NCBI GenBank assembly: GCA_029866325.1
Contig: JARWZO010000004.1
Span: 124,001 to 188,000 of the forward strand
Direction: 5' to 3'
From: Fluviicola sp.
GTDB taxonomy: Bacteria > Bacteroidota > Bacteroidia > Flavobacteriales_D > Crocinitomicaceae
Length of the DNA: 64,000 nucleotides
The notes beneath the pieces were generated by a model. The model did no database searches and was not told where the DNA came from. It saw only the letters and a list, made by a program, of their open reading frames with translations. The stretch's first letter is position 1. Each line of letters starts with the position of its first letter. Positions 29,640 to 63,119 of the stretch are shown here, piece by piece. The position numbers and the translations under genes were made by a program.

Positions 29640-30446
29640 ATGTCGAAGAATCGATCAGCAATACCGGATTTCATTGGTTTGTTATTCTTGTTAATCATCC
29701 TTTCAGCCTGTTCTTCGGGGAAGGGACTTCCGAAGAAGAAAACAAGTGTACCATGTAATGTGCAACAAAATGGTATTTATCGGGTTAGAGTAACCATTGT
29801 TGGCGAACATCCGAGCATATATGTCGGGTCACTTGACGATCAATATTTCACAGAAGTAGTTATTAAGAATGAGAAAATTGTGGAATGGAAGAACCAGAAG
29901 CGAGATAGTGGTTTACCCATTTCTCTTTATCCACAAAATGGGGTCACTATGGGTTCTTGGAGTGAAGAATATTCTGACTGTTCAGTTGATGTTATCAAAT
30001 GTCTGAGTAAAATTGAGCAAACTGATATTGTACAAGCGAACCAAAAAAAGCACTTGAATGAAATTCCTTTATTACCTGTTCGTTTAGGCGATATTCTTGA
30101 AGGTGCCGGAGGGAAATACGCTTTTTCGAAAGAAGAATACTTTAAGGAAAATAGCTGTTTTGTAATAGATAATGATTGTTTCGCACTTCTGAATTTGAAT
30201 GGGGAGGATGTTTATTTAGACCACGATATTTTTAGATCTTCGTTTCCTGAAAGCGGTAAGACTTATCATCTTTACAATGATAATTATTCAGCCACAATTG
30301 AGTTTAAAGTAGCAGGCGAAGTCCATCGTAAAAAGATAGGATACTCTACCACACCTCAAACCATGGTTTTAAAACTTACCCGAAAAAAAGACGGCGAAAC
30401 GGCAACATATCATTTGTTTGGCTATAGTGGTGATGTTGAAGCATAA
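29640..30446 (+). CDS. Hypothetical lipoprotein
   Basis: 268 residues; lipobox LSAC at about 21-24, so probably lipid-anchored. Four further cysteines and strand-rich segments; no known domain recognised. It starts 40 bases after the zinc-ribbon-like gene and converges with the FG-GAP-like gene (8 bases between stops). Confidence 0.68.
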   Translation: MSKNRSAIPDFIGLLFLLIILSACSSGKGLPKKKTSVPCNVQQNGIYRVRVTIVGEHPSIYVGSLDDQYFTEVVIKNEKIVEWKNQKRDSGLPISLYPQNGVTMGSWSEEYSDCSVDVIKCLSKIEQTDIVQANQKKHLNEIPLLPVRLGDILEGAGGKYAFSKEEYFKENSCFVIDNDCFALLNLNGEDVYLDHDIFRSSFPESGKTYHLYNDNYSATIEFKVAGEVHRKKIGYSTTPQTMVLKLTRKKDGETATYHLFGYSGDVEA

Positions 30447-30454
30447 GCAAACAC

Positions 30455-31081
30455 TCAAAACCTAACCTCCTCCCGATAAGGCGTATCTTCACCATCAAAG
30501 CGAATTCCTTTCAAATAATATCGATTCCCCGATTTTACAAGATGAGACTGCAATGTTGTCTCGCCGTAATCGCGACGGTGATTGACCGACGCTACTTGTT
30601 CCCATTTTCCATTTCGTAAGGTATAGACATATAGGTGCGCCATGCTGCTGGTAAACCATCCCGGACAAAAAATCAGTTCATTCATACCGTCACCATTCAA
30701 ATCGCCGGCATTTTCAACGGTTCCCCATACGGAGTTTTCAAATACCAGTTCGGGTACTTCACACGAAAAGGTGATTTTGTTGTAACAATCGCCAGCCGCA
30801 CAACCAAACTCGTAGTGAATAGTTCCCTTTTCGTCCATGTAGGCGAGCGTGGGTGGCGTGATCACAAAAGCTGTGTCGTACTTACCGTCGTTATTCAGAT
30901 CCTGCACCAATACCGTATCGCAGTATTCGGGTTCCACAATTTCGGTTAATTCGGGCACTTTTGTGCTGTCGCCCGCTATCGCTTTATTTCCTGCATGCAA
31001 GCGGTTGTCTGTTGGTTTTGCAGTACAATTGGTCAGTGTAAACAATCCGCAAACCAGTAGTGTAATCAGTGTTTTTTTCAT
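30455..31081 (-). CDS. Lipoprotein with FG-GAP/VCBS-like calcium loops
   Basis: 208 residues with lipobox TNC at about residue 19. Two calcium-loop repeats, VQDLNNDGKYDTAFV (about 60) and AGDLNGDGMNELIF (about 125), match FG-GAP/VCBS propeller blades. It is too short for a whole propeller, so it may hold only a few blades or oligomerise. Cysteines at CAAGDC may form a disulfide. Likely exported; ligand unknown. Confidence 0.7.
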   Translation of the reverse strand: MKKTLITLLVCGLFTLTNCTAKPTDNRLHAGNKAIAGDSTKVPELTEIVEPEYCDTVLVQDLNNDGKYDTAFVITPPTLAYMDEKGTIHYEFGCAAGDCYNKITFSCEVPELVFENSVWGTVENAGDLNGDGMNELIFCPGWFTSSMAHLYVYTLRNGKWEQVASVNHRRDYGETTLQSHLVKSGNRYYLKGIRFDGEDTPYREEVRF

Positions 31082-31226
31082 ACACCAAATCTGCTGCTTT
31101 CAGCTGTAACCGAAAGCGGTGTTTTATTATTTGCGCGGAGTGGGGGATTATTTGATCTACTTCTTTAAGAACGTTGATTTGCCGAAAGTAAAAAGAGCAC
31201 CACCTTCCGATAGCGCTCTTCGTTGT

Positions 31227-33281
31227 TTACTGAATGATCTCAACCTGTTGAACCGTTTCTGAAAGTTCACTGATTTGCTGCTGAATCTTGTGTTCGAATG
31301 AAAAATAATCTTCTTTCGTTCGGAAGCCGCTTGTGTGAATCCAGTCTTCGGTTGAGTAAGTGCGCACGAATTCACCAATCAATTGCTCTTCCATTTTGTA
31401 GTGCGTTGTCAGGTATTCCGACAATTTCAACAGCAACAATTTGTGCTTTTGCAACAATTGTTCGGCTTCTTTTTCACAGGTGTGGATCAACTGCAACGCT
31501 TCTTCTTTGTACTTGTTTTCCATGTAAAAGAGGTCGCTGTTGTCAGCAGAATACACCGAAATGGTAATTGGATCGTTGCCCATGGCATAACTACGAATGG
31601 CAGCGTTGGCCAATTTGGTCGCCGTTTCAATGTCACTGGAAACGCCCGATGAGGTTTGCTCGATACCAAAGATCATTTTTTCAGCAATGTAACCACCAAG
31701 TGAAATGATGATGTCTTTTTTGATGATCTCACGGGTCGTCAATCCTTCCGGAAGATTCACCATACAAAATCCGTCGGCATATTCGGCTGCTGATTTGGAA
31801 ACAATGATCGATGGCAAAATACGCAACGTCATGATCGCCAATACGGCATGTCCGGCCTCGTGCACCGCTGTGTGAGCTTGCAAATCACGATTCGTTGTTT
31901 TTCGCAATGAGTCAATTTTGAGGTTCACTTTTTCTTCCTTCAGCGCAATAACACTGTTGGTTAAATCTTTGAACACAAAACGATAGCCATCATTTACGTA
32001 GAACCATTCGACCGTTGAAACGTGTAGTTTAAGTTCAATGACTTCGATCACAATTTTCCCAAACCACGCTTCAATGTAATTTTTGATGGTGGTCAACACC
32101 GGTCTGGTTCCTTGCGCCGGAAATACTCCTTCACGGTAAATCAATTCGTTGATCGAAGAGTCATACTGCAGCTCGAAGTGAAATTGTTCACGAATGAAGC
32201 TTGCCACACGTTCTAGTTCACGACGAATCAATTCTTCGAAATGAGCATTTTTAAACGCGCGATAAATCACATGGTTATTCCCCAAACGGGCAATTTGCTC
32301 CAGTCTGAATCGTTTCTTTAGTGCAGTTTTGATGGAAGTCAAGTTGATTTTCAACGTAGCTTCATGCAATTCGTCTGCACTGATATCAGGGTTCATTGAT
32401 TTACTCATGTCGTAGGCTTCATCGAGGTTTCCCAAAATGAAAATCAAGGCTTTCGACAAATCCAATTCTTTGGTGGCATTACGGGTTTTTAATCCGCTGA
32501 GTAAAATATCGATGATCCCGAACAAATCGCTTTTCGAGGCTTCTTCTTTGATCATTTCCTGAGGCGTAACATCGTCGTTGAACAAATAATAAACCCCGGA
32601 AACAAAGTCGGTCGACAAAAAGTAACCGGCATCCATGGCGTTGCCGTTGCGGGAGTAATTTTCAAAGTAGAAGTGCTGAAAAATCTCCGTAAACTGCTCA
32701 ACGTTGGTCGTTACAACGCCATTTTCGATGATCACACCTTGATCTTTGGCTTTCACCAGATTCATCAAACACACTTCTGCACGTTTAATGTAAAAGGCGT
32801 TGTTGGAAGGGATGTACGAAAGTTTTCCATTATCGATCAAATCCCAAACAAAGCGCAGTTTGTCTTTCCCCAGTTCGTTTCCGCTATTGTCGAGCGTGCG
32901 GGCAAATTGAAATTCGTCCATGCACATAATGCACGGTTGTTCATGAAGAAATTCCAAATCGTCGGTCAAGGTATTTTTAAACCACGTAGCCGAATCGGAT
33001 TCAAATTCTCCCATGTCAATTTGCACGTACAATTTTTCGTAAGCCAGCAATTCGACCAGCTTTTTCACGAGTGCCGTTTTACCCGAACCTGTCATTCCCC
33101 AAAGGTTGATCACCATCGGACGTAATTGTGCCTTTGGAAATAAGTACCACGATGATACCAAGCCCATCACTTCATCGATGATCTGATCCAACCCGATGAA
33201 ATGTGTTTTTAGCGCGACCGTAATCTCGGTCATTTTATGTTTTTTCAGGATGATTTCCTGATGTAATGCATGTTGTTCCAT
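31227..33281 (-). CDS. ClpB-like AAA+ ATPase fused to an M41 (FtsH-type) peptidase domain
   Basis: 684 residues from the ATG at 33281 (a GTG 39 bases earlier is unlikely). Residues about 1-400 are an AAA_2-type ATPase: Walker A GMTGSGKT (about 61-68), Walker B CIMCMDEF, sensor asparagine in FILGNLDEAY and Arg finger in LKKRFRLEQIARL. A ClpB-like small domain follows (FPAQGTRPVLTTIKNYIE). Residues about 460-650 are a full M41 peptidase with HEAGH (about 473) and the third ligand SSDIETATKLAN. No membrane helix is evident. The usual FtsH has a different AAA domain; canonical ftsH is at 60963-63119. Soluble ATP-dependent protease; substrate unknown. Confidence 0.85.
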   Translation of the reverse strand: MEQHALHQEIILKKHKMTEITVALKTHFIGLDQIIDEVMGLVSSWYLFPKAQLRPMVINLWGMTGSGKTALVKKLVELLAYEKLYVQIDMGEFESDSATWFKNTLTDDLEFLHEQPCIMCMDEFQFARTLDNSGNELGKDKLRFVWDLIDNGKLSYIPSNNAFYIKRAEVCLMNLVKAKDQGVIIENGVVTTNVEQFTEIFQHFYFENYSRNGNAMDAGYFLSTDFVSGVYYLFNDDVTPQEMIKEEASKSDLFGIIDILLSGLKTRNATKELDLSKALIFILGNLDEAYDMSKSMNPDISADELHEATLKINLTSIKTALKKRFRLEQIARLGNNHVIYRAFKNAHFEELIRRELERVASFIREQFHFELQYDSSINELIYREGVFPAQGTRPVLTTIKNYIEAWFGKIVIEVIELKLHVSTVEWFYVNDGYRFVFKDLTNSVIALKEEKVNLKIDSLRKTTNRDLQAHTAVHEAGHAVLAIMTLRILPSIIVSKSAAEYADGFCMVNLPEGLTTREIIKKDIIISLGGYIAEKMIFGIEQTSSGVSSDIETATKLANAAIRSYAMGNDPITISVYSADNSDLFYMENKYKEEALQLIHTCEKEAEQLLQKHKLLLLKLSEYLTTHYKMEEQLIGEFVRTYSTEDWIHTSGFRTKEDYFSFEHKIQQQISELSETVQQVEIIQ

Positions 33282-34021
33282 ATTGTTTGTGTTGATGAAG
33301 GAGCAAAAAGAAATAATCACCTTTTACCGCTTCAACCGTTTTTAAAAGTCACCCCATTTGGGATAACCTTTGATTAAAGTGTAGATCTTTTTTGAACGAT
33401 GAAAACCGAACAAGCAAGATGCTGATTTGTTGTTGTGATGAATGTTTCCGAAAAGCGATACTTGTCTTTTAGACAACGTATTGAGCTATTTTCAAAACCG
33501 TTTTGTAGAAGAAAGTGAACTAAAAAGCCGCGAAACGTGGTGGAACATTTCGTTTAATTCTTGTCGAAAAATTGATTGTGAAAGTGTCTAACTTTTACTG
33601 TCAACAATTGACAACTGTGCTTCCGGATTACCTTTTGTCGGTTTTGAAAGTTGAGGGAAAAAGACAACAAAAAACCCGGCTGACGACCGGGCTAAATATC
33701 ATTGAATGATCAGTATCCGGTCTACGATTTACCTTTAAGATTTACTACTGACATACTGTTGCTTTTTTAGAGTGTTTTGTTAATTCTGATGGCGAAACTA
33801 GAATCTTAAAATGGAATATGCAAATTTTGGGTTGTTTTTTAGATAGACGTAGTTCTTTTTATTGGTTTTAATGAGCTGAAAAATTAGTGGTTAATGGTGT
33901 GTTATAAAAAACAAAATTCTTCAATTCAAAAAGTATGTAAGTTGATTCATATAGTGATTTTGTTTTCGCTGACAGACAGATTTAATAACTAAATTAGTGT
34001 TATCTTGCTATTTGTTTTTTA
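33282..34021. other. 740-bp non-coding divergent region with inverted repeats
   Basis: No plausible gene. It contains inverted repeats TGTCAA-CAA-TTGACA (33600-33614) and CAAAAC-C-GTTTTG (33493-33505), either of which could be regulator sites, and a minus-strand terminator at 33675-33691. It separates the AAA-M41 gene (minus) from a lipoprotein gene (plus). Confidence 0.6.
33675..33691 (-). terminator. Orphan minus-strand terminator upstream of the AAA-M41 gene
   Basis: On the minus strand: stem CCCGG/CCGGG with loop TCGTCAG, directly followed by TTTTTTG. Nothing is annotated on the minus strand between here and 34022, so it would end an unannotated RNA or attenuate a leader. Confidence 0.6.
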
Positions 34022-34555
34022 ATGAGGACTACATTATTAATAACACTTTTGGTTTTGCTTCAAAGTTGTAACGCCCAACTGCAACAAGATTCTGTCTCAA
34101 TGTCAGTCTGGCAAAGCAAATATCACAATCTTAAAGCAAATTATTCTTCTGAGTGGAGTTTACTTCCTGGGATCGATAAAGAAAACAAAGTAATCTTCGG
34201 ACTAATCGATAAAACAGATGGGAAATCCTACTTAGTAAAAATAGCAGAAGATGTTTCTAAAGAAGATCTTCCAGATGAGGATTATTACTTGGCGTTTAAA
34301 GAGATGGTTCTAAATGAAAATCCGAAAAACAAATTACTGAGTGAGCAAGATGTCGATTTTCATGGTAGTAATTACCATCGATTGGAATTCCTCATCTATA
34401 CTGAAAAATGGGGCTTACTCAAGCAATATGCCTATGTTAATAGACCAGGTGATTTTATCATTGGAGTTCAGCTATCATATCCTGTGGCTGAAGATAAATC
34501 GAATGCGGAAATGCCCGAATCAATGATTGAGTTAGATAAAAATGTCGTACTATAG
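34022..34555 (+). CDS. Hypothetical lipoprotein
   Basis: 177 residues; lipobox LLQSC at about 12-16. The mature part begins with a long helix and contains YYLAFKEMVLNENP and YVNRPGDFIIGVQLSYP, an alpha/beta arrangement reminiscent of PsbP-like stress lipoproteins, but I cannot assign it. It stands alone after the long non-coding region. Confidence 0.62.
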   Translation: MRTTLLITLLVLLQSCNAQLQQDSVSMSVWQSKYHNLKANYSSEWSLLPGIDKENKVIFGLIDKTDGKSYLVKIAEDVSKEDLPDEDYYLAFKEMVLNENPKNKLLSEQDVDFHGSNYHRLEFLIYTEKWGLLKQYAYVNRPGDFIIGVQLSYPVAEDKSNAEMPESMIELDKNVVL

Positions 34556-34686
34556 ATTATTTAGTTCATAAATTTGAACATGCATTAACTATGGTCATTT
34601 CCAAGTATCAGCGCTGAATTTTACTTTTTGTGAGTTGTAGATTTTTTCTCACAGTTAGTTCGCTGTAAACCCACCACAGTCATTAC

Positions 34687-35673
34687 TCAATTCACCCGCA
34701 CAAACACATTTTCCCGCACCGAATAGGTTGTATTATCCACTTTCAACGTCATTCCTTCTGTATATGCATCCAATCCGGTATACGACCTTCCGTTAAAATG
34801 CACCGATCCTTTCGTCATGCGTGCAAGGTTCAGAAAAGCAACTTCTAATGCTGCCGGTGGTCCGCAAACCAGTATGTGAACGGGCTTCGTAACCTGTGAT
34901 GCCATTGAAAAATCCCATGGCTCGTTGTTGTCGTTGATCATGATGAGGCTTTGGGCCAGCGGATAGTCCGATTGTGCTCTCAGCAATGCTTGAATGTTGT
35001 TTTCATTGACATCGAAGCCATTGCTTTCCTTTCGGGCAGACCGAAACCGTTCAGCAGTGCTTTCGTAAGTGGTCGGTTTAAATGAATGAGTGCCAAGCAG
35101 CATGTTGATTTCGTGGTCTTTATTGTCGTTGAAAAGCACGATGCCATGAATGGAAGAGTCTGCTGCTGCTATGCGAGGTTTCAGCCAGGCAAGTGTCTGA
35201 TCGTTGTAGCTGTCCATACTTCCGGTTACGTCACATACCAATACTGTGCTTCGCAATGAATTACTGGTCAGTGTTTTTGAAATAAACTCAGCTTGCGGAA
35301 TGCGTGTCGCCTCGGCTTTGCGTTCTTCTTCCGTTCTCAGAGCAATTTCCTTTTCTTCACGTGCTTTGAGGGCATTTGAGCGTAAAAGCTGATCTTTTGC
35401 ATATTGATCTTTCTGTAGCTCAAGCGCTTTGGTATAATTGTCAATCGCCTCTCGGTAGCGTTTCTGGTTGAAATAATAATCGCCCGTGGCTACCAGTTGC
35501 TTGAAATCTGGTGCTGTGGCCTCTTCTGTCGGATTAAAAACAGTGGGGAAACGTACACTTGGAAAAGGAATAGTTGTTCCGCCTGTTGCTGGTACCGGAA
35601 GGTTTGGTCGCGGAGTTTGCGCGTGGCCTGAAACAATAACGGCAATCGAGAAAAGAGTAAAAAGTGCTTTCAT
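34687..35673 (-). CDS. Secreted TPR and von Willebrand factor A-like protein
   Basis: 328 residues; signal peptide ends at about GHAQ (19). A TPR unit (YYFNQKRYREAIDNYTKALEL, about 68-88) and a charged helix precede a vWA-like domain from about 140: LVCDVTGSMDSYND carries the MIDAS pattern DxTGS, followed by HGIVLFNDN and SLIMINDNNEP. vWA domains bind partners through a metal ion. The upstream gene has the same TPR style, so they probably form a two-gene unit (25-base gap). Confidence 0.78.
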   Translation of the reverse strand: MKALFTLFSIAVIVSGHAQTPRPNLPVPATGGTTIPFPSVRFPTVFNPTEEATAPDFKQLVATGDYYFNQKRYREAIDNYTKALELQKDQYAKDQLLRSNALKAREEKEIALRTEEERKAEATRIPQAEFISKTLTSNSLRSTVLVCDVTGSMDSYNDQTLAWLKPRIAAADSSIHGIVLFNDNKDHEINMLLGTHSFKPTTYESTAERFRSARKESNGFDVNENNIQALLRAQSDYPLAQSLIMINDNNEPWDFSMASQVTKPVHILVCGPPAALEVAFLNLARMTKGSVHFNGRSYTGLDAYTEGMTLKVDNTTYSVRENVFVRVN

Positions 35674-40495: not shown

Positions 40496-42493
40496 TCAGT
40501 TTTCAACCACCATTGATTTCTGCTCTTTGATCATTTTTTTGATCTCAGCCGTCATTTCGAGTGTGAGTTCACTCCAATTACTGAAAAATTCATGTACCGT
40601 TCCAGTTTCATTACGAGGGTTTCTTTCCGTGATTCCTTCCACATAACGAAAGCGATCAACCGGACTTGGATGCGTGTCGTTTTCACTTGTTTTGCGGTTG
40701 AGCGATTTTTCTACTTCAGTTTCAAGATCAGACGCGTCGGCAGGAAGTTCAGACAGTTCATACAGGTTGTTGTAGGCCCGTTTCTGTGCTTCCGCTTGTT
40801 CTATTTCAGCATTTGCCAACATGCCAAATTCAATGGAACGACGCACAACAAAGGTTAACCCGTTACGGAAAGATTGTGCTCCGTAGGTTTGGGCGGCAAC
40901 TCGGTCGGCAAGGATTTCTTGTAAGCGAGTCGCACCTGCCGAAATGCGGGTAAAAATGAAATGATAAAATTTCAAAAACAAAAAGGCGATACTCCACCAA
41001 GTTGCATTTCCGCTGTTGTAAAGCGCAATGTAATAATTGGTCATATCGCGCTGTACCCGCATAGCACCACCACCACCTGCTGTATCGCGATTGGCAAAAT
41101 GTCCGTACTCATGCGCAAGAATGGCTCTGAAATCATTTTTCTGAAAATCCTTCAAAACAGCTGTTCCTAAAATAAGCACTCGTTTACTTTTGTCTTGCAT
41201 TTTTGCCCTCCATGACCCCATTTCGTAAACAGCCAAATCGGTTTCGGGGGTGATGCGAATTTCATCAATAGGTCTTGTGTTTAGGTCTTTTGCAACTTCG
41301 CGCGTCAACGCAAATAATTCGGGCGCTTCAGATTCTTTTAGCAATCTTCCAGGTTCGTACAATCGCACTCTGACAAACAATGATTTAAGGAGTGCCCAAA
41401 TGGTGCCACCCACAACAATCGCAACAATAATGATTAGTTTAATGGCAATCACACCCGCCGAAAACATTCCGAAAAGGAGGCCGCCTCCGATTGCTAATAC
41501 CAGAATCACGATGATTGGTAATGAAATGTAGTAGTAAAATCCGGCAATATTGATCAGGATTTTATAGAATTTGCGTATCCCGGTACTTTCTTGTAAATGA
41601 TTGTTTTTTATTTGTTGCGCAATAGAGCGCAAGGTAATCATGGACAAAATAATCCCAATTAGATAAAGCAACACAATGCCACTAACCCAAGCAATGACGA
41701 TCCAAAAAAGAAGGTCTAGGTAGCCCCATTCGGTATTTTCGGTGTAATTAAAGTAATTACTTGGATCATACGATTGAGTTGAATTGTATTGAGCATTCGA
41801 TGCCAAAAATTCACGCATGTCTTCATCTGACAATCCCAATTTATTGGCAATTCTAATTTCGGTGGTGGCTTTTTTCTGATCTCCATCATTTGCGGCAAGA
41901 ATGGCAGCATAATAATGTGTCGCCATTTCATTAGGGAAGTTAGCACTCAAAAAGTTGGAGGCTTCACGAAATTTAGTGAGATCGTTTTCTTGCAAGCCCA
42001 TTTGCGCCATCAATAAATAGTAGGCCGGGTCTTTTTTTGATTCTGGAAATAACTTCGCTTCTTGAATAATCGAGTTCAAGCGTTCAGCGTCTCTGTTAGA
42101 ATCGGCAGTTGATGCTGGGGTTTCTTGTTGAACCAAACACGAAGCCAATGTAATGAGATTCGCATACGAGCGATTCATTTCTAATGCCTTTTCGCAAAGA
42201 AGCAATCCGTCGGCATGTTGCCCAAGAGCATATTTAACATTTCCTAAACGTCGCACTACATGATCAAAGGTAGGTGCATGTTGATAAACGATAGAATAGA
42301 GCTTTTCTGCCGTTCCATAATCGTTTTGATCCAACGCAATGGTTGCGTCCTTGAATTCGTCAACATAATCAGGAGCAATTACCTGAAGCTCTTTTTCAAT
42401 GATTCGTTCGGCGATTGAGTCGCGTTTTTGTCCAATAACGACATTTGTAAAAAGCAAGGCAAGAAGCGTAATGTAGGTGGCAAAGTGTTTCAT
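40496..42493 (-). CDS. M48 family zinc metalloprotease with N-terminal TPR domain
   Basis: 665 residues, longer than HtpX (about 300). Signal peptide 1-22, TPR-like helices to about 240 (YGTAEKLYSIVYQHAP), membrane helix at about 260-285 and a second hydrophobic block at about 325-375, then the M48 domain with AHEYGHFANRD (HExxH at about 461) and EILADRVAAQTYG carrying the third ligand. M48 enzymes degrade misfolded membrane or envelope proteins. The TPRs face outside and probably recruit substrates. Confidence 0.88.
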   Translation of the reverse strand: MKHFATYITLLALLFTNVVIGQKRDSIAERIIEKELQVIAPDYVDEFKDATIALDQNDYGTAEKLYSIVYQHAPTFDHVVRRLGNVKYALGQHADGLLLCEKALEMNRSYANLITLASCLVQQETPASTADSNRDAERLNSIIQEAKLFPESKKDPAYYLLMAQMGLQENDLTKFREASNFLSANFPNEMATHYYAAILAANDGDQKKATTEIRIANKLGLSDEDMREFLASNAQYNSTQSYDPSNYFNYTENTEWGYLDLLFWIVIAWVSGIVLLYLIGIILSMITLRSIAQQIKNNHLQESTGIRKFYKILINIAGFYYYISLPIIVILVLAIGGGLLFGMFSAGVIAIKLIIIVAIVVGGTIWALLKSLFVRVRLYEPGRLLKESEAPELFALTREVAKDLNTRPIDEIRITPETDLAVYEMGSWRAKMQDKSKRVLILGTAVLKDFQKNDFRAILAHEYGHFANRDTAGGGGAMRVQRDMTNYYIALYNSGNATWWSIAFLFLKFYHFIFTRISAGATRLQEILADRVAAQTYGAQSFRNGLTFVVRRSIEFGMLANAEIEQAEAQKRAYNNLYELSELPADASDLETEVEKSLNRKTSENDTHPSPVDRFRYVEGITERNPRNETGTVHEFFSNWSELTLEMTAEIKKMIKEQKSMVVEN

Positions 42494-44429: not shown

Positions 44430-46772
44430 ATGAAGTTATTTATAGTAATTCTGATCTCAATTTCACCCCTTTTTCTTTTGTCGCAATACGATTTGCTCCA
44501 ACTCAATCATTTACTCAATGAAGCTGACGAAAAAGAGCAATTGTTTGAATGTTCTAACCTCATGAACGACGGTTATTTTTATCAAGCAAATTTGGTATGC
44601 GATAAACTGCTTGAACGGCAACCGGATAATAGCAACTACAATTTCAGGAAGGGTTATTTGTTATTGGAAATGAGCACTGATTTTGTGCATGCTATTCCGT
44701 TTCTTGAAAAGGCAATTAGACAAACGTCCAAAAACTGGGATCAATACAGTATCACTGAAACGAAAGCACCAGTTGATGCCATTTACGTACTAGCCCAATG
44801 TTATCATCTGAATAAAGAAATCGACAAGGCGAAAGAAAAGTACAATGCCTTCATTGCGGCATCTAATCCGAAGTCGTACAACATTGTGCAAGCCAAGTTG
44901 CGTCTCAAACAATGTGATATAGCAGCTTATGAGTTAGCTCACCCGAAACCGGCTATTGTGGAAAACGTGGGGAACACTGTAAACACCGGAAAGCCGGAGT
45001 ATTCTCCCGTAATTTCATTGGACGGATCAGCGCTCTTTTATACTTCCAGAAGACAATGGGAAGGCACAAAGCCTGAAGAGAACCGCGATGATCGCTTGTA
45101 TCAGTATCCAGAGGATATCTATGTTTCTTATGTAAATGTTGATTCTTCGTGGACGAGTCCCGAGCGGATCCCCTTTTGTGATCCCGCTCAGAATGAAGCT
45201 ACCATGGCTGTAAGTCCGGATGAACGACGGATTTACCTCTATCAGGACATCGATGGGAATGGAGATATCTACTATTCGAATGTGACAAATGAGCGTTTTA
45301 AAACCATCACGCATATCGATAACAACAAAATCAATACACCGAATTGGGAAACGCACTGCACGGTTACACCGGATGGAAGTACGATGTATTTTGTATCGAA
45401 CATGAAAGGCGGTTATGGCGGACGTGATATATACTTCTGTGTAAAGAATGACAAAGGAGAGTGGAGTAGTCCGAAAAACTGCGGACCGATTTTGAATACG
45501 CCTTATGACGAAGAATCACCCTTTATTTCCATCGACAATAAAACACTCTACTTTTCTCACAACGGCGAAAAGAGCATGGGCGGCTTCGATATTTTTCAAT
45601 CCATCCTTGATTCTGTCGGCAATTGGTCCGTTCCCATGAATCTGGGGCATCCGTTCAACAGCACTTCGGATGATCTTTTTTACACAACAACGTTCGACGG
45701 GTTGACCGGTTATTTTACATCACTGCGCACAGACGGTTATGGCGAAAAAGACATCTATGTGATCAAAAACGATTACCTCGGAATTCACCCGCTTGCCATG
45801 TTAACCGGAAATATTCGTCTAAGAAACGGCGCAACAATGCCTGCTGATCTTGCGGTTGAATTGAAGTGCAAGAACTGTTCTTCCTTTACCCAAAAGACCT
45901 TATTTCCACGTTTTCGCGATGGTTATTTTCTATCTGACTTGAATTTATGCGCACAATACGACCTAGTGTACACCCGCAACGATGGAAAAGACGTGATTTT
46001 TACCGATACCTTATCCACCAATTGCAATTACATGCAGCAAACGGTTTACCGCGAATTGTGGTTGGATAAAGAAGGAAAATTGTCGCGCTTGTATTTTGTA
46101 GACGGAATCATCCGCGACAGCAAGACCAATGAAGTGGTGACCAACGCACAAGTAACGCTCAAAGATGTCGCCACCGGTGCCATCCTAGCGAATATCGAAA
46201 CAGACGAAAAAGGCTTCTTTAAGTCAGATTCACTATTTGGAAAACTCCCGAACGATCAAATGAGCGTACATCTTGACGTATCGAAAAAGGGTTATGCTCC
46301 AACTTCCGTTGATGCAACGATTACCTTTGCTAATGAATCGGTGGTTCACTTGAACGAAGTCATCAATCCATTGTTGTCTGAAGTGGCAATCGGAACCGAT
46401 TTGGGCTTGTCAATTAATCCGATCTATTTTGATTACCGCAAATGGAATATTCGACCGGATGCAGCTACGGAACTGGATAAAATTGTTGCCATCCTGAAAG
46501 CCAATCCGAAAATGAAAATAGCCTTGGGTTCGCATACAGACTCACGCGGAACCGACGAAGACAATCAGTTGTTGTCTGAGCGTCGCGCCAAATCTTCTGT
46601 AGATTACATCGTCTCAAAAGGAATCTCCAGAAACCGCATTACCGGCAAAGGTTACGGCGAGTCACAACTCAAAGTCTCCGATGCGGAAATCAAAGCCGTT
46701 TATCTATGGGTAGAACAGGAGAAAATGCACCAGTTGAATAGACGAACCGAGTTTGTGGTGGTGAAGTTGTGA
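44430..46772 (+). CDS. PorE-like TPR / PD40-propeller / OmpA protein (paralogue 1)
   Basis: 780 residues with signal peptide 1-19. Order: TPR helices (about 20-165), PD40/WD40-like propeller (about 180-450; SPVISLDGSALFYTSRR, AMAVSPDERRIYLYQD, GGYGGRDIYF, KSMGGFDIF), carboxypeptidase-regulatory-like fold (about 550-650) and OmpA peptidoglycan-binding domain at 665-780 (GSHTDSRGTDEDNQLLSERRAKSSVDYI, in parts). This is the domain order of PorE, a T9SS component that links the secretion machinery to peptidoglycan. It lacks a lipobox, unlike classical PorE. Paralogues at 49685 and 52021. Confidence 0.88.
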   Translation: MKLFIVILISISPLFLLSQYDLLQLNHLLNEADEKEQLFECSNLMNDGYFYQANLVCDKLLERQPDNSNYNFRKGYLLLEMSTDFVHAIPFLEKAIRQTSKNWDQYSITETKAPVDAIYVLAQCYHLNKEIDKAKEKYNAFIAASNPKSYNIVQAKLRLKQCDIAAYELAHPKPAIVENVGNTVNTGKPEYSPVISLDGSALFYTSRRQWEGTKPEENRDDRLYQYPEDIYVSYVNVDSSWTSPERIPFCDPAQNEATMAVSPDERRIYLYQDIDGNGDIYYSNVTNERFKTITHIDNNKINTPNWETHCTVTPDGSTMYFVSNMKGGYGGRDIYFCVKNDKGEWSSPKNCGPILNTPYDEESPFISIDNKTLYFSHNGEKSMGGFDIFQSILDSVGNWSVPMNLGHPFNSTSDDLFYTTTFDGLTGYFTSLRTDGYGEKDIYVIKNDYLGIHPLAMLTGNIRLRNGATMPADLAVELKCKNCSSFTQKTLFPRFRDGYFLSDLNLCAQYDLVYTRNDGKDVIFTDTLSTNCNYMQQTVYRELWLDKEGKLSRLYFVDGIIRDSKTNEVVTNAQVTLKDVATGAILANIETDEKGFFKSDSLFGKLPNDQMSVHLDVSKKGYAPTSVDATITFANESVVHLNEVINPLLSEVAIGTDLGLSINPIYFDYRKWNIRPDAATELDKIVAILKANPKMKIALGSHTDSRGTDEDNQLLSERRAKSSVDYIVSKGISRNRITGKGYGESQLKVSDAEIKAVYLWVEQEKMHQLNRRTEFVVVKL

Positions 46773-49684: not shown

Positions 49685-51784
49685 TTATTGGGCTTTCAGC
49701 TCAACGAACTGATATGGCCAGTATTTTTCGGTGTTGTCTCTGTCTCCACCAAATGCAGGTCCGGAAACCACAGCAGAAACCACTTTCACTTCTACACGAT
49801 CTTTGTACTTAGAGTTGCGGTAATGCCAGTTTACTTTTTGCTGCATTTTCTGAGCACGCGATTCACTCAATTCTTGGTTGTCTTTAAACGCAGCCGTTGG
49901 CACATAAGACGCCGAAGAGTAAACTTCGATCACAATTTTCTCACGACCCGCTTTCAACTGTTCATCAACACCATCGAAGAATTGTTTCAATGAACCATTC
50001 TCATCTTCAGGAGCGTTTTTGTTGTATCCGAAGTTGCGTTTGTAAGCCAAAGGCAAGTAAGTTGGTTTCACAGGAATTACAGTATCTACAACAGGAGTAG
50101 TATCAACAACCGGTGGTTGTACGATCAACCATTTGTCGGCATCTAAAAAGATTTCACGGTAGATCTCTTCTTTTTCTTTCGAGCAATCTGTTGTGAGGGT
50201 TTCTCTGTAAAACTCAGTCGCGCCATTGGTGTGGTGGAAAACCACTTCGTATTCGTGACAAGGCTCTAGGTTCATCATGAAAACACCGTCGCGGGCGCGT
50301 GGGTAAACGGTACGACCCATTTGATCACCACAATCAATGCAATTCAATGAAACGGTCATGTCTTCAGGCATCGGACGTTCATTAAGTGTGATGATTTTCC
50401 CTTTCAAGATAGCACCACGATTCGGTGTCAAATAATCATTCTGAATTTCGTAGATATCTTTTTCACCTTTCGAATCACCACGTGTTGAAGTAATGTATCC
50501 GCGACGACCGTCGATTGTCTCGGTATAAAATAAATCATCGCTGGTAGAATTGAGCGGGTAACCCAAGTTGATAGGAGTGGACCAATTGTTATCGCCATCA
50601 ATTACAGAAACCATGATATCAAAACCACCCATACTTCTTGGACCGTTACTAGCGAAATAAAGAGTTTTGTTATCGCTGGCCATAAATGGTGAATCTTCGT
50701 CGAATGCACTGTTAACAGTAGCTCCTAAGTTAAAAGGCTTGCTCCATGATCCATCAGGTAATTTAACGATACGATAGATATCACGACCACCGAAACCTCC
50801 GGGTCTATCAGAAGTAAAATACATTGTACGTCCGTCAGGTGTAACAGCACAGTGTGTTTCCCAATATTCTGAATTGACTTCAGCAACTTTATAATCCTGT
50901 ATTTCTTTGAAGCGATTGGTAGAGAAGTCAGAGAAATAAATATCACCGTTGTTGACCATATCTTGGTAAACATAAATACGACGTTCATCCTGACTCACCG
51001 AAATAGATGCCTCATTTTGATCGGCTTTACAAAATTCCAAACGTGCAGGTTCCATCCATACATCGTCAAAATCTTTATAAGAAACGTAGATGTCTTCCGG
51101 GTAAAAATCGTAACGAGGATCTTTTGAATCTTCATCTTGACCTTCAGACCATGCACGGCGCGAAGTAAAATAAATCGCACTACCGTCAAATGAAATAACC
51201 GGAGAATATTCCGGTGCGGTAGAATTGATGGTGTTTCCAAGGTTGATAACCGTTACGTTTTTCTTTGGAAATTCCATTGATCTTTTGGCGTTTGCCAATT
51301 GATCCAATCCCAATTGTGCAGAAGCTGTGAGATCTGTTTTCTTTGGAGCTTGCGCCAAAAAGGCTTTATAATTCTCTTCTGCTTTATCTACATTTCCGGT
51401 TTTGTGGTAGCATTTTGCCAAACGGTACAAAACATCTACTGCAGCATGACTTTCCGTTCCCGAATACATGTCGTAATTCTTATCGATGTTTTTGGACGCT
51501 TTTTCCAAATACGGAATTGCTTCTCCGGGTAAGGCACGACCTTCTGACACCAAAAACCCTTTTCGATAATTGTAATTGCTGTTTTCCGGATTTTTACCGA
51601 TAAGCTTGTCCATTATTTTTTCAGCCGCAGCATAATAACCTTCTTCAAGCAGTCTGGAGCTTTCAACCAAGAGTTTTTCGTCAGAATAAGTGGCAATAAT
51701 ATCGTCCAATTTTGCATTCGTATATTGGCCGAAACTAAGTGAGCAATAGGTGCTAACAAATACAAAGAATAGTAATATTTTCAT
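49685..51784 (-). CDS. PorE-like TPR / PD40-propeller protein with degenerate OmpA-like end (paralogue 2)
   Basis: 699 residues, signal peptide 1-19. TPR (about 20-160), PD40 propeller with the same landmarks as its paralogues (SPVISFDGSAIYFTSRR, GGFGGRDIYR, RSMGGFDIM), then CRD-like cysteine segment (LNCIDCGDQMGRTVYP). The C-terminal 110 residues are OmpA-like by LSESRAQKMQQ but lack the TDxxG aspartate site of a peptidoglycan binder. It is about 80 residues shorter than the other two. Probably an OM-associated scaffold of the T9SS family with altered anchoring. Confidence 0.85.
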   Translation of the reverse strand: MKILLFFVFVSTYCSLSFGQYTNAKLDDIIATYSDEKLLVESSRLLEEGYYAAAEKIMDKLIGKNPENSNYNYRKGFLVSEGRALPGEAIPYLEKASKNIDKNYDMYSGTESHAAVDVLYRLAKCYHKTGNVDKAEENYKAFLAQAPKKTDLTASAQLGLDQLANAKRSMEFPKKNVTVINLGNTINSTAPEYSPVISFDGSAIYFTSRRAWSEGQDEDSKDPRYDFYPEDIYVSYKDFDDVWMEPARLEFCKADQNEASISVSQDERRIYVYQDMVNNGDIYFSDFSTNRFKEIQDYKVAEVNSEYWETHCAVTPDGRTMYFTSDRPGGFGGRDIYRIVKLPDGSWSKPFNLGATVNSAFDEDSPFMASDNKTLYFASNGPRSMGGFDIMVSVIDGDNNWSTPINLGYPLNSTSDDLFYTETIDGRRGYITSTRGDSKGEKDIYEIQNDYLTPNRGAILKGKIITLNERPMPEDMTVSLNCIDCGDQMGRTVYPRARDGVFMMNLEPCHEYEVVFHHTNGATEFYRETLTTDCSKEKEEIYREIFLDADKWLIVQPPVVDTTPVVDTVIPVKPTYLPLAYKRNFGYNKNAPEDENGSLKQFFDGVDEQLKAGREKIVIEVYSSASYVPTAAFKDNQELSESRAQKMQQKVNWHYRNSKYKDRVEVKVVSAVVSGPAFGGDRDNTEKYWPYQFVELKAQ

Positions 51785-52020: not shown

Positions 52021-54372
52021 TTACTTTACAATCAGGAATTCTGTACGACGATTTTTCTGGTGACCAGCTTCTTTTTCAGCTTCTGTTGCCATACCTGAAA
52101 TAGCTGCATCACTCACAACCAACTTAGATTCTCCGTATCCTTTTCCTGTAATTCTGTTAGCAGGAATTCCTTGTGAAATAATATACGCGGCAGACGATTT
52201 AGCACGACGATCAGAAAGTGCTCTATTAAATTCATTACTACCACGGCTATCCGTATGCGATCCCAATTCGATTTTGATACTTGGATTTTCCTTCATGATT
52301 TTAACAATCTTATCCAATTCCATTTTCGCATCCGGACGAATGTCTGATTTGGTATAGTCAAAGTAAATCGGTTTGATATCGATTACATTTGCCAAATCTA
52401 CACCAACTTCCACTTTCGTCATCATCGGGTTGATCAACGAATTGATATCAATACGCGATTCCATTGCCAATTCAAGAGGAACGTCGTAGGTCATCGTAAC
52501 GTATCCTTCTTTTTCCAAACGAAGTTCAATAGCGAATTTATCGTTACGTTTTTTACCAACTAAGGTGTCGCTTTCAAACGAACCGTTGGTTAAAGTAGAC
52601 GCGTTTAAGATCGGTTGTCCATTGCTTTTATCAACAATGGATACTTTCACGTCACCCAATTCTTTTTTGGTTTTACTGTCTTTAACAGTTCCTGCCAAAT
52701 AGTAGATGTTTACAATGTCTTTCAACTCTGTATCCAACCATACTTCACGGTAAACTTCCTGGTATTGTTTTTCGCAATCGGTATTGAATGTTTCTTTGTA
52801 GAATTCTTGTTTTCCTCCTTCATACGAGAATACCATTTCGTATTCACGACAAGGTTCCAAAGAGCTCAAGAAAACACCATCACGCATACGAGGGAATACT
52901 TTACGGTCAAACGGATCACCACAGTTGGTGCAACGCAATGTGATTGAAACATCTTCCGGAAGCGGTTTTCCGCCTACAGTATTGATTTTTCCTTTCAACA
53001 CGGCAAGGTTTTTCATGCCCAAGTAATCGTTTTGTACTTCGTAGATGTCCTTTTCACCAAATCCGTCAGCTCTGAAAGATGTCAGGTAACCGGTCATTCC
53101 ATCAACTGTAGTTGTATAGAACAAATCATCGCCCGTAGAGTTGAGCGGGTAACCTAAGTTAATTGGGTCTGACCACACGTTGTTTTCATCGCGAACGGTT
53201 ACAAATACGTCAAATCCGCCCATACTTTTAGGACCATTGCTGGAATAGTACAATGTTTTGTTATCCACAGCAATAAACGGAGATTCTTCATCAAACGGTC
53301 CGTTGATACTTGGTCCCATGTTTACCGGATTACTCCAATCACCATCAGGTAATTTTACAATGCGGTAGATATCACGACCACCGAAACCGCCTTTACGGTC
53401 AGAAACGAAGTACATGTTTTGTCCATCAGGAGTTACCGTACAGTGGGTTTCCCAGCTGGAAGTGTTCACATTACGGTTTTCGAAGTGTGTTACTTCCTGA
53501 AAACGATTGGTCGAGAAATCCGAGTAAAAAACGTCACCGTTTCCTTGCGTATCTTGGTATAAGTAAATACGACGCTCATCCGGACTCACGGCCATGGTGG
53601 CTTCATTTTGAATTGAATCACAAAATTCCATACGAGCAGGTTCCGTCCATGTTCCGTCAAAATCGCGGTAAGAAACGTAAATATCTTCCGGCAATTGGTT
53701 TATGCGGGTGTCCATTCCTTTGTTGCTGGCTCCGCTTGGCCATCCGCGACGTGAAGTAAAGTACAAAGCAGATCCGTCTAATGAAATTACCGGAGAATAC
53801 TCAGGTTTTGTTGTATTCACAGATGATCCGATGTTTTGCAATTTCACTTTGCGTGGAACTTCCATTTGCTTGCGGGCAATGACACATTGTTCCAGGTTTA
53901 ATTTGGCGAAAAACACAAATTCCGATTTCGGATTGGAAACAGCAATGAATTTATTGTAATATTCTTCTGCTTTGGTGATGTTTTCAGCCAAGTGATAACA
54001 ACGAGCCAAGTGATAAATGGCATCTGTTGGGGCGCTTTTTTCACCTGCCGAGTACATGTCGAAATTTTTATCGGTACTCAAAACCGCTTTTTCCAATAAT
54101 GGCAATGCTTTTACAAAATCACGCGACATTTCAAGGTAAACAAAACCACGACGATAGTTGTAGTTACTGCTATTCGGGTTGAGTTCCAACAAGCGATCGG
54201 CTACTAAACCGGCTTGATAGAGGTAGCCCTCTTGCAGCATTTGAGAATTTTCGGTTACCAATGTTTGCTCCGAAGAGTTTTTTAAGATATCCTGCAATTG
54301 TTCGTCAGTATACTGAGCAAACGTTAACAAAGGCAGCAAGAATAAGGCTACAGTAGTAAAAATTCGATTCAT
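52021..54372 (-). CDS. PorE-like TPR / PD40-propeller / OmpA protein (paralogue 3)
   Basis: 783 residues, signal peptide 1-19 (ends TFAQ). TPR (about 20-165), PD40 propeller (about 180-450; SPVISLDGSALYFTSRR, AMAVSPDERRIYLYQD, GGFGGRDIYR, KSMGGFDVF), CRD-like fold (about 550-660; AGTVKDSKTKKELGDVKV), OmpA domain (about 665-783; ELGSHTDSRGSNEFNRALSDRRAKSS, in part). The peptidoglycan-binding TD and R are retained. Closest to the protein at 44430-46772. Likely a T9SS-linked outer-membrane/peptidoglycan bridge; role by domain analogy to PorE. Confidence 0.9.
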   Translation of the reverse strand: MNRIFTTVALFLLPLLTFAQYTDEQLQDILKNSSEQTLVTENSQMLQEGYLYQAGLVADRLLELNPNSSNYNYRRGFVYLEMSRDFVKALPLLEKAVLSTDKNFDMYSAGEKSAPTDAIYHLARCYHLAENITKAEEYYNKFIAVSNPKSEFVFFAKLNLEQCVIARKQMEVPRKVKLQNIGSSVNTTKPEYSPVISLDGSALYFTSRRGWPSGASNKGMDTRINQLPEDIYVSYRDFDGTWTEPARMEFCDSIQNEATMAVSPDERRIYLYQDTQGNGDVFYSDFSTNRFQEVTHFENRNVNTSSWETHCTVTPDGQNMYFVSDRKGGFGGRDIYRIVKLPDGDWSNPVNMGPSINGPFDEESPFIAVDNKTLYYSSNGPKSMGGFDVFVTVRDENNVWSDPINLGYPLNSTGDDLFYTTTVDGMTGYLTSFRADGFGEKDIYEVQNDYLGMKNLAVLKGKINTVGGKPLPEDVSITLRCTNCGDPFDRKVFPRMRDGVFLSSLEPCREYEMVFSYEGGKQEFYKETFNTDCEKQYQEVYREVWLDTELKDIVNIYYLAGTVKDSKTKKELGDVKVSIVDKSNGQPILNASTLTNGSFESDTLVGKKRNDKFAIELRLEKEGYVTMTYDVPLELAMESRIDINSLINPMMTKVEVGVDLANVIDIKPIYFDYTKSDIRPDAKMELDKIVKIMKENPSIKIELGSHTDSRGSNEFNRALSDRRAKSSAAYIISQGIPANRITGKGYGESKLVVSDAAISGMATEAEKEAGHQKNRRTEFLIVK

Positions 54373-60962: not shown

Positions 60963-63119
60963 TTATTCTTCTGTTTTATTTTCTTCCGCCGATTCTTCGG
61001 TTGCCTTGCCATTCAAAGGCTCAACTTTACCTGTGGCGCTTTTTTTCTTAGAAGGTTTCGCTTCTGCAGCTTCTTCGGTTTCGTCAGGTTGAATGGAAGG
61101 TGCTTCTGTTTCTTCCACAATCACAGATCCACCAATGGTTTCTTCGTGTTTTGGAGTGCTCACCAACTCTTCTTCAGCCCAAGCGCGTTTTCCGAAAATC
61201 TCTTCCAAATCTTCTTTGAAAATGACTTCTTTTTCTAATAGCTTGTCTGCAAGCAAGGTCAATTTATCTTTGTTTTCACTCAGAATTTTGATTGCTCTCT
61301 GGTATTGAATTTCGATCATTTTGCTCACCTCTTCATCAATGATACGGGCTGTATCTTCCGAGTAAGGTTTGGTAAACATTTCACGACCTTGCGAATCGTA
61401 GAAGGAAACATTCCCCAAACGTTCGTTGAGTCCGTAGATTGAAACCACATCATAAGCTTGTTTGGTTACTTTCTCCAAATCGCTCAATGCGCCGGTAGAA
61501 ATTTTACCAAAGATCAATTGTTCTGCGGCACGACCACCCAAGGCTGAACACATTTCATCCAAAATCTGTTCGGTGGTAGTAATACTGCGTTCTTCAGGCA
61601 AATACCAGGCAGCACCCAATGAACGTCCACGTGGCACGATGGTTACTTTTACCAATGGATGAGCGTGTTCCAACAACCATGAAGTAGTAGCGTGACCGGC
61701 CTCGTGGAAGGCAATAGCGCGTTTTTCTTCTTTAGTGATGATCTTATTTTTCTTTTCCAATCCACCGATGATACGGTCAACGGCATCTAAGAAATCTTGT
61801 TTTTCAACAAATTGTTTTTCTTTACGAGCGGCAATCAACGCTGCTTCGTTGCACAAGTTGGCAATATCCGCACCCGAGAATCCCGGAGTTTGTTTCGATA
61901 AAAATTCAATGTCTAAGTTTGGAGCTAATTTCAACGGTTTTAAGTGCACCTGGAAGATTTCCTTGCGCTCGTTCAAATCGGGCATATCCACATAAATCTG
62001 ACGGTCGAAACGTCCGGCACGCATCAAAGCGCTATCCAATACATCGGCGCGGTTGGTTGCTGCCAGAATGATCACTCCGGAGTTGGTACCGAAACCATCC
62101 ATTTCAGTCAATAACTGGTTCAAGGTGTTTTCACGTTCGTCGTTGGAGCTGAATCCTGCGTTTTTACCACGCGCTCTACCGATAGCATCAATTTCGTCGA
62201 TGAAAATGATAGCTGGGGCTTTTTCTTTCGCTTGACGGAACAAATCACGTACACGCGATGCACCTACACCTACAAACATTTCAACGAAGTCTGAACCTGA
62301 AAGGGAGAAGAAAGGAACTTTGGCTTCACCGGCAACGGCTTTCGCTAACAAGGTTTTACCGGTTCCCGGAGGTCCTACAAGTAAAGCTCCTTTCGGAATC
62401 TTGGCACCTAGTTCGGTAAACTTCTTCGGATTTTTCAAAAACTCAACGATTTCCTGAATTTCTTCTTTTGCTCCTTCCAATCCGGCTACGTCTTTAAATG
62501 TAGTGTTGGTAGATTTTCCTTTTTCGTAGACCTGAGCACGCGATTTTCCGATGTTGAAAATCTGTCCGCCCGGTCCGCCACCGCTGCCACCCGACATACG
62601 TCGCATGATCACGATCCAAATCACAACAATAATCAAAATAGGGAAAAGATAGCCCAATATATTACCGAGGTAATTGACTTCTTCTTCAAACTGACAATCG
62701 ATTTGTTTTTTATGAGCGGCTTTCAGCACTACATTTAAATCGTCTACCTTTTCTTCAAAACGACCGGCATCGGAAATGTTGAGGGAGAACTCTGGATCTT
62801 TTTCGGCACGCATTGAACGGCCTTTCGTTTCAAGTGCTTTTTTCAATTTCTTGAATTCACCTTTCTGATTTTCCTTCACGAATTTTTTTCCTTCTTCGGT
62901 CAAGCGAAAATCAACACGCACACGGTTTACGATACGTACATCTTTTACGTAGCTCGAATCGGCCAAACTGAAAAAGGTCTCCGGACTTTTAATCTCCACA
63001 TCGTTCGACCCACCAAGAAAGAGCTGGAATGCGATGACGGCAACACCGATAGCGGCATACAACCAATAAATGGCGTATGGATTTCTCTTCGGTTTGTTCG
63101 AATTATTGTTTTCTGACAT
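60963..63119 (-). CDS. ftsH: ATP-dependent zinc metalloprotease FtsH
   Basis: 718 residues. Two membrane helices (about 13-31 and 152-172), AAA domain with Walker A GPPGTGKT (about 247-254), Walker [36 protein letters not shown], and the M41 peptidase with HEAGH (about 470) and [14 protein letters not shown] Gly-rich joint and an acidic Glu/Lys-rich C-terminal tail of about 60 residues follow. It degrades membrane and short-lived regulatory proteins. Confidence 0.97.

Follow-up and report, generated by a model that had tools for sequence, protein, structure and literature searches.

A predicted Clp D2-type ATPase and M41 zinc peptidase in one chain of Fluviicola, and its links to RtcB and PrfH among related bacteria

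The stretch of DNA analyzed here (hereafter the window; 64,000 nucleotides of Fluviicola sp., contig JARWZO010000004.1, positions 124,001–188,000) carries on its minus strand a gene (31227–33281; ATG at 33281, stop codon ending at 31227) for a protein of 684 residues. By profile and structure comparison, this protein is a Clp/Hsp100 D2-type AAA+ ATPase and an M41 zinc peptidase in one chain. Genes of the same family lie in operons with RtcB and PrfH in relatives of the window's genome, co-occur with them at the genome level, and are preceded by related leader open reading frames (ORFs). RtcB is an RNA ligase that reseals cleaved RNA, and PrfH is a release factor that makes a damaged ribosome let go of its nascent chain. 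We consider it probable that the soluble Clp D2/M41 protein serves as the proteolytic arm of a leader-controlled ribosome-rescue and RNA-repair response that also includes RtcB and PrfH. A wider proposal, which we put forward only tentatively, is that the family represents a distinct class of AAA+ protease, in which a Clp motor without the classical pore grip is joined to an M41 peptidase and is devoted to proteolysis in ribosome repair. The protease, the ligase, and the release factor would belong to a single regulon, whether in cis or in trans, under the control of a conserved leader peptide able to read the state of the ribosome. The original prediction, which was made from the letters of the window, described the fusion of the two halves; the RtcB and PrfH linkage and the leader ORF, which are the most telling points on function, as well as the missing pore-loop-1 motif and an insert before sensor 1, are absent from it.

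The original prediction assigned ClpB/ClpX-like motifs and a small domain to the ATPase half and set this half apart from the FtsH AAA domain. In the window protein taken singly, the Pfam domain Peptidase_M41 scored 67.3 bits (cut-off 29.9; residues 468–634, 31380–31880, minus strand), and AAA (19.9 bits, cut-off 21.2), ClpB_D2-small (19.2 bits, just under the cut-off of 21.9), and AAA_2 (13.8 bits, cut-off 27) remained below their thresholds. Because the AAA and ClpB_D2-small matches of the N-terminal part were weak, we built an alignment of 58 family members (57 loci and the window protein), which was cut into an ATPase half and an M41 half for comparison with reference profiles from related genomes (28 ClpB/ClpC D2, 9 ClpX, and 11 FtsH sequences). 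The profile–profile comparison revealed that (i) the ATPase half matched ClpB/ClpC D2 with an E-value of 4.1e-15 (hhalign, residues 11–437, of which the insert region aligns poorly), against 5.7e-5 over 68 columns for ClpX and 3.5e-4 over 64 columns for the FtsH AAA domain; and (ii) the M41 half matched FtsH M41 with an E-value of 2.9e-21. Among the family members, Pfam matches at E <= 0.01 were obtained for M41 in 58/58, for ClpB_D2-small in 47/58, for AAA in 46/58, and for AAA_2 in 11/58. The separation from FtsH was thus borne out, as was the ClpB-like character with its lid, which is of the ClpB/ClpC D2 type, but ClpX proved to be a more distant relative. The suggested choice between AAA_2 and AAA likewise came out as ClpB type by the profiles, although AAA_2 itself fell short.

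The NCBIfam model FtsH_fam (TIGR01241) scored 56.8 bits on the window protein against a cut-off of 600, and its best stretch was the peptidase part (residues 461–628); the NCBIfam ClpB model scored 43.2 bits against a cut-off of 1232, with its best stretch at residues 248–412. In a profile search of the PDB, the C-terminal half matched Yme1/FtsH (best Yme1, 4e-28), approximately residues 317–443 matched ClpC/ClpB/Hsp104, and approximately residues 13–98 matched ClpE/CLPB. The splits given by the profiles and by the PDB search agree, and the swapped pairing of a Clp D2 motor with M41 is therefore right as originally described. An AlphaFold2 single-chain model had a mean predicted local distance difference test score of 88 and a predicted template modeling score of 0.75. 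When the whole model was searched with Foldseek, FtsH chains ranked first over the full length because both halves count, with poor superposition (root mean square deviations of about 11–17 Å). The ATPase half of the model matched Skd3, ClpB, and ClpC, with TM-scores of 0.72–0.77 normalized to the shorter Skd3 chains and 0.56 for one longer chain. An FtsH orthologue is ruled out by the low FtsH_fam score and by the ClpB/ClpC D2 match of the ATPase half.

As had been noted, a normal ftsH gene is also present in the window (60963–63119; 791 bits to FtsH_fam), and these 2 genes are the only M41 matches in the genome. The claim that the Clp D2/M41 protein is soluble, unlike FtsH, agrees with a hydropathy scan, in which no membrane segment was predicted in this protein (peak 19-residue hydropathy of 1.78, against 2.95 in the FtsH of the window). 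Compared with FtsH/Yme1, the window protein shares the M41 domain with HEXXH and a distal Asp, but its ATPase half is of a non-FtsH type, and it has neither a predicted membrane segment nor the FVG pore motif. Compared with the Hsp100 D2 proteins ClpB, ClpC, and Skd3, it shares the whole ATPase half, including the D2-small lid and sensor 2; by contrast, it would form a single ring, has no GYVG pore loop, contains the insert, and carries its peptidase fused in cis, whereas the Hsp100s use ClpP or none.

Fourteen positions are each kept in 58/58 members (G62, G67, K68, D122, E123, N285, R324, R326, R332, R393, H474, E475, H478, and D550), which we take to be those of Walker A and B, the sensors, the finger arginines, HEXXH, and the distal Asp. 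On the minus strand of the window, the ATPase half includes Walker A (residues 62–69, 33075–33098), Walker B (residues 118–123 with D122 and E123, 32913–32930), sensor 1 (N285, 32427–32429), a likely arginine finger (R332, 32286–32288) that aligns with the NRID region of ClpB D2, and a ClpB_D2-small-like lid indicated by the profile matches (approximately residues 345–430, 31992–32249) with sensor 2 at R393 (32103–32105). Sensor 1 was placed by eye; the profile alignment did not span it. In the peptidase half, the zinc motif HEAGH (residues 474–478, 31848–31862) has invariant H474, E475, and H478, and the invariant D550 (31632–31634) occupies the position of the third zinc ligand. All M41 zinc ligands are retained, as originally claimed; an inactive M41 site was not seen in the sequences of the 58 homologues, and the profile searches did not place the ATPase in the classical FtsH family. 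Such invariance of the zinc and ATPase positions is what a functional protease would be expected to show. The Clp/Hsp100 D2-type ring motor, presumably a hexamer, would feed the M41 peptidase of the same chain in an ATP-dependent manner.

Pore loop 1 is the loop thought to pull substrate. Its aromatic-hydrophobic-Gly motif (GYVG- or FVG-like) was found in 0/58 members within residues 85–125. In the profile alignment, the ClpB pore-loop stretch falls into a 12-residue gap, and the equivalent of pore loop 1 is a shortened segment (residues 85–99, 32985–33029, minus strand), inside which a W or F is found close to residue 98 in many members. The alignment with ClpB D2 and the secondary structure of the model also reveal an insert of approximately 110–120 residues that follows the Walker B helix and precedes sensor 1, spanning approximately residues 153–275 (32457–32825, minus strand; approximate boundaries). 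The absent pore motif and the insert only indirectly suggest that the protein may have its own substrate choice, as originally proposed.

The absence of the motif argues against ordinary threading and in this respect weighs against our preferred reading. It is possible, although rather unlikely, that the protein is a remodeller instead of a processive protease and uses ATP to strip a single partner locally or to cut it at a specific site; this partner could be a toxin, a ribosomal protein, RtcB, or PrfH. Such an activity could exist within a role in ribosome repair or apart from it, and it would fit both the missing motif, with the ClpB stretch lost in the gap, and the position of the insert immediately before sensor 1. 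The invariant zinc site and ATPase positions speak for a working protease instead, and the W or F close to residue 98 may provide the shortened loop with a different aromatic residue.

The single window sequence detected no relatives in one genome scan. The long form of the gene was present in 8/99 related genomes, including the window's own and one in which it is split over 2 contigs, and in 5/395 genomes of a phylum sample. When the family alignment was used to scan named genomes, 93 loci were obtained, 80 of which were kept. The same architecture had been proposed for a search across phyla; 77 of the kept loci belong to Bacteroidota, and the others are one deltaproteobacterium (Myxococcota in the tree), one Chlorobiota, and one Riflebacteria. 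We designate as clade I the window and 27 named loci with 44–66% identity (28 loci in total); clade II has 28–38% identity. The long homologues at the named clade I loci rule out a chance fusion or an assembly artefact. Neighborhood counts exclude L005, L006, L007, L009, and L010 (taken as the genomes of L083, L080, L084, L096, and L101), L106 (the same as the L104 match), L095 (no blastp match), the split copy L008/L023, and L107–L111. Genome-level tests for RtcB and PrfH cover all 27 named loci of clade I and 23 from clade II, which together make up 50 of the 80.

In clade I, RtcB lies upstream of the protease on the same strand in 15/28 loci, and PrfH lies between RtcB and the protease in 9/28; one representative each of RtcB and PrfH was confirmed by Pfam. 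In 11 of the 15 RtcB-linked loci, fewer than 10 nucleotides separate the protease from the preceding gene, and where RtcB directly adjoins the protease the gap is 4–6 nucleotides (6/6). Ohtaekwangia koreensis, which has a homologue, is a species whose type strain carries RtcB and the protease as an operon. At the genome level, RtcB was present in 27/27 other clade I genomes against 160/395 genomes of the phylum sample (Fisher 9e-11), and PrfH in 11/27 against 28/395 (Fisher 5e-6), values that overstate the significance since related genomes are not independent. The sister of the window protein in the tree (L024, support 100/99) sits in an RtcB–PrfH–protease operon, and the window's genome contains an RtcB–PrfH pair on another contig (C21). 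A second RtcB of the window's genome, again on another contig (L119, G000:C5:47984–52603), lies by eye next to a slipin/Band-7-like protein; a nearby protein has a start that resembles members of the WYL homology cluster described below.

Comparison by blastn revealed conserved non-coding DNA upstream of the RtcB operons and of the stand-alone clade I proteases, and this stretch contains a leader ORF with a hairpin after it. A 10-codon leader (an M[LMFSV]V start, seven codons, and a stop) was present in 20/28 clade I upstream regions against 3/257 control intergenic regions, a comparison in which the clade I regions extend up to 800 nucleotides against a control mean of 399 nucleotides and for which the pattern was written after the sequences had been inspected. 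All 20 leaders end in TAA or TAG. When only the last 400 nucleotides were considered, the leader was present in 19/28 regions; the window's own lies at −473. A looser scan for any ORF of 6–25 codons with a terminator separated the 2 sets less well than the 10-codon pattern (18/36 upstream regions against 26/149 controls). In the window, the leader ORF found by the pattern scan (MSVVNLKGKS followed by TAG, 10 codons; 33722–33754, minus strand) precedes a terminator-like hairpin with an 8-bp stem and a T run (33669–33693, minus strand; folding z −2.2). This predicted layout, in which a short ORF and a terminator-like hairpin come before the structural gene, is that of leader-attenuated operons. 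A second hairpin with a T-rich stretch (33531–33552, minus strand) lies between the leader and the gene, and the hairpin scan placed another terminator-like hairpin just 3′ of the stop codon (31192–31221, minus strand).

In group A of these upstream regions (the window, L024–L028, L031, and L033), the hairpin has an almost constant stem, which thus offers no covariation support. In group B (L030, L032, L034, L035, and L037–L044), the stem sequence varies and complementarity is kept when stems are compared sequence by sequence (CGGTAAG/TTTACCG, GCGGCAAG/CTTGCCGT, and TTAGTTGAG/CTCAACTGA); RNAalifold detected no covariation in group B, where gaps possibly shifted the stem. The genomes with stand-alone group B proteases have a separate RtcB with an [LSF]HI (Leu-His-Ile) leader within 500 nucleotides in 7/7 cases (L035, L037, L038, L040, L041, L042, and L044). 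These RtcB leaders are MLDQNLHITL (three genomes), MLDQSLHITL, MLVLTLHITL, and MFALKLHIAPIRQR (two genomes). The other RtcB paralogue of the same 7 genomes had such a leader in 0/7 under the same test, and outside the group no [LSF]HI-type leader was found in the stretches tested from the genomes of L029, L046, L048, L049, and L050; one L198 stretch without an RtcB start was set aside.

Among the 28 PrfH operons of the phylum sample, 20 were inspected, and 5 had a leader and a terminator by eye (L128, L129, L131, L132, and L133). The PrfH operons of L120 and L125 have short ORFs, none of which resembles these leaders. A different conserved leader, MVVRLRG[WL]VHS, precedes RtcB together with a terminator-like hairpin in the PrfH operons of L128, L129, L131, and L132. 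A third type of leader stands before RtcB in L133 (MTEQFYISSLFIAA) and in L118 of the window's genome (MMERTYISSFVAEA). Other upstream elements were also sought. ARAGORN detected no tRNA in 34/35 upstream regions, the remaining match being a reverse-strand tRNA-Gly near L100; Rfam gave no match at the gathering score within window positions 30400–35000, with 2 weak matches below it; and a sigma-70 promoter scan gave 3 sites, fewer than in shuffled sequences (7.4).

By analogy with the Pseudomonas system described below, translation of the leader, which probably senses the state of the ribosome, would decide whether transcription passes the terminator. Ribosome trouble would in this way switch on the ligase, the release factor, and the protease. 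The most likely substrates of the protease would be truncated chains that bear no tag, or protein that stays behind on the damaged particle, both of which general proteases may handle poorly.

The biochemistry of RtcB2–PrfH was reportedly treated by Tian et al. in 2022. According to Maviza et al. (2022, PMC9223846), PrfH–RtcB2 rescues ribosomes cut in the 16S rRNA and protects Escherichia coli from colicin E3. The same 2 genes lie directly upstream of the protease in the 9 clade I loci described above, whereas the described E. coli operon consists of 2 genes without a protease. The consulted part of PMC6514570 gives TPR, Pol-beta NTase, zinc-ribbon, and charged-helix proteins as accessory genes of PrfH–RtcB operons and names no protease among them, and a word search of the accessible text of PMC1586002 and PMC9223846 found no protease or AAA gene of this kind. 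In Pseudomonas, the leader peptide PA5471.1 controls the RtcB-like gene armZ, which lies next to prfH, and attenuation has been proposed to act when ribosomes are impaired (PMC12057347). The Pseudomonas system and the loci analyzed here have in common that an RtcB-like gene and PrfH are preceded by a short leader ORF and by predicted terminators; expression of the Pseudomonas system rises when ribosomes are impaired, whereas here the likeness is one of arrangement and the control is read from sequence alone. No published description of a Clp D2/M41 protein was found in the literature searched, which did not extend to the RNA-repair survey by Burroughs and Aravind (2016) or to the work of Tian and colleagues on PrfH. 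The Pseudomonas case was the only one of leader-peptide attenuation of RtcB in that literature.

In addition to the relatedness of the genomes, the longer upstream regions, and the late definition of the leader pattern, several observations weigh against a repair role, for the window copy in particular: (i) the upstream region of the window gene had no blastn match to the others; (ii) the 10-codon leader is missing from 8/28 clade I loci; (iii) terminator-like hairpins around the window gene number 5 against 4.1 in shuffled sequences and are thus not commoner; (iv) the window copy stands alone, with neither RtcB nor PrfH adjacent; (v) the RtcB–PrfH pair of the window's genome is preceded by a different short ORF (MMERTYISSFVAEA) and a weak hairpin, and co-regulation there is therefore only suggested; and (vi) PrfH and the protease occur together in 2/28 PrfH genomes of the phylum sample (G000 and G361), the G361 protease match being broken by 2 stop codons. 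Most PrfH genomes are without the protease, and core repair therefore does not need it.

Clade II has a different context. Proteins of the WYL homology cluster, one of which was confirmed by Pfam, lie within 6 kb of the protease in 31/55 clade II loci, often approximately 60 nucleotides upstream on the same strand (L054, L056, L067, L074, L084, and others). RtcB (E <= 1e-30) was matched in 11/23 clade II genomes and not in the other 12/23, which is not different from the background. Both results count against a general repair role and would fit an alternative that we regard as unlikely, in which stress or defence regulates the protein as an effector protease (an anti-phage one, for example) and its storage beside RNA-repair genes, seen in some groups, is only incidental; the basic role would be the one in clade II, with its WYL regulator. 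The patchy distribution of the family points in the same direction. However, the genome-level tie to RtcB is complete in clade I, a related leader precedes the separate RtcB, and RtcB linkage needs at least 2 changes on the tree (22/58 rows ungrouped, including stand-alone clade I copies). A known defence system was tried and rejected, as PADLOC gave only weak matches in the ATPase region.

PrfH is enriched in clade II too (8/23 genomes), and a Dysgonomonas/Tannerella-type group of clade II is linked to RtcB and/or PrfH (L061, L066, and L071 by the tree; L068, L072, L081, and L100 by neighborhood), some members of which also have KptA and TatD. KptA, an RNA 2′-phosphotransferase, lies directly or closely downstream of the protease in L064, L066, L068, L071, L072, and L081, and TatD is present in 5 of these 6 loci, so that RNA-processing genes surround the clade II protease there. 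The WYL regulator and the clade II protease appear as a separate two-gene module elsewhere, and in L087 an HsdM-like protein lies near this module by eye.

That the stand-alone copy of the window is a relic outside the repair response is very improbable: it has no adjacent RtcB or PrfH and the pair on another contig has a different leader, but its frame is intact, its catalytic positions, leader ORF, and terminator-like hairpin are all kept, and other genera also have stand-alone copies together with an RtcB that is preceded by a related leader.

To our knowledge, AAA+ proteases come as a few fixed pairings of motor and peptidase, and the natural occurrence of Clp D2 and M41 in one chain shows that a motor can be combined with a different peptidase. 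If the protein acts as the proteolytic arm of the repair response, its association with RtcB and PrfH would mean that the repair of ribosomal RNA also includes protein clearance. The Clp D2/M41 protease makes it testable what happens to nascent chains after their release by PrfH, and the leader would offer a ready read-out of the signal that calls the repair system in Bacteroidota.

A phage or plasmid gene is ruled out, since no record in the phage and plasmid collections covers 80% of the protein. Three loci are on viral contigs, 2 of which are alike; these viral-catalogue contigs carry the protease at L104, L105, and L106, and a KptA-cluster gene lies near L105. Elsewhere in the window, an M48 peptidase with TPR-like repeats is encoded at 40496–42493 (minus strand), and proteins with PD40 are encoded at 44430–46772, 49685–51784, and 52021–54372, the first and last of which also have an OmpA domain.
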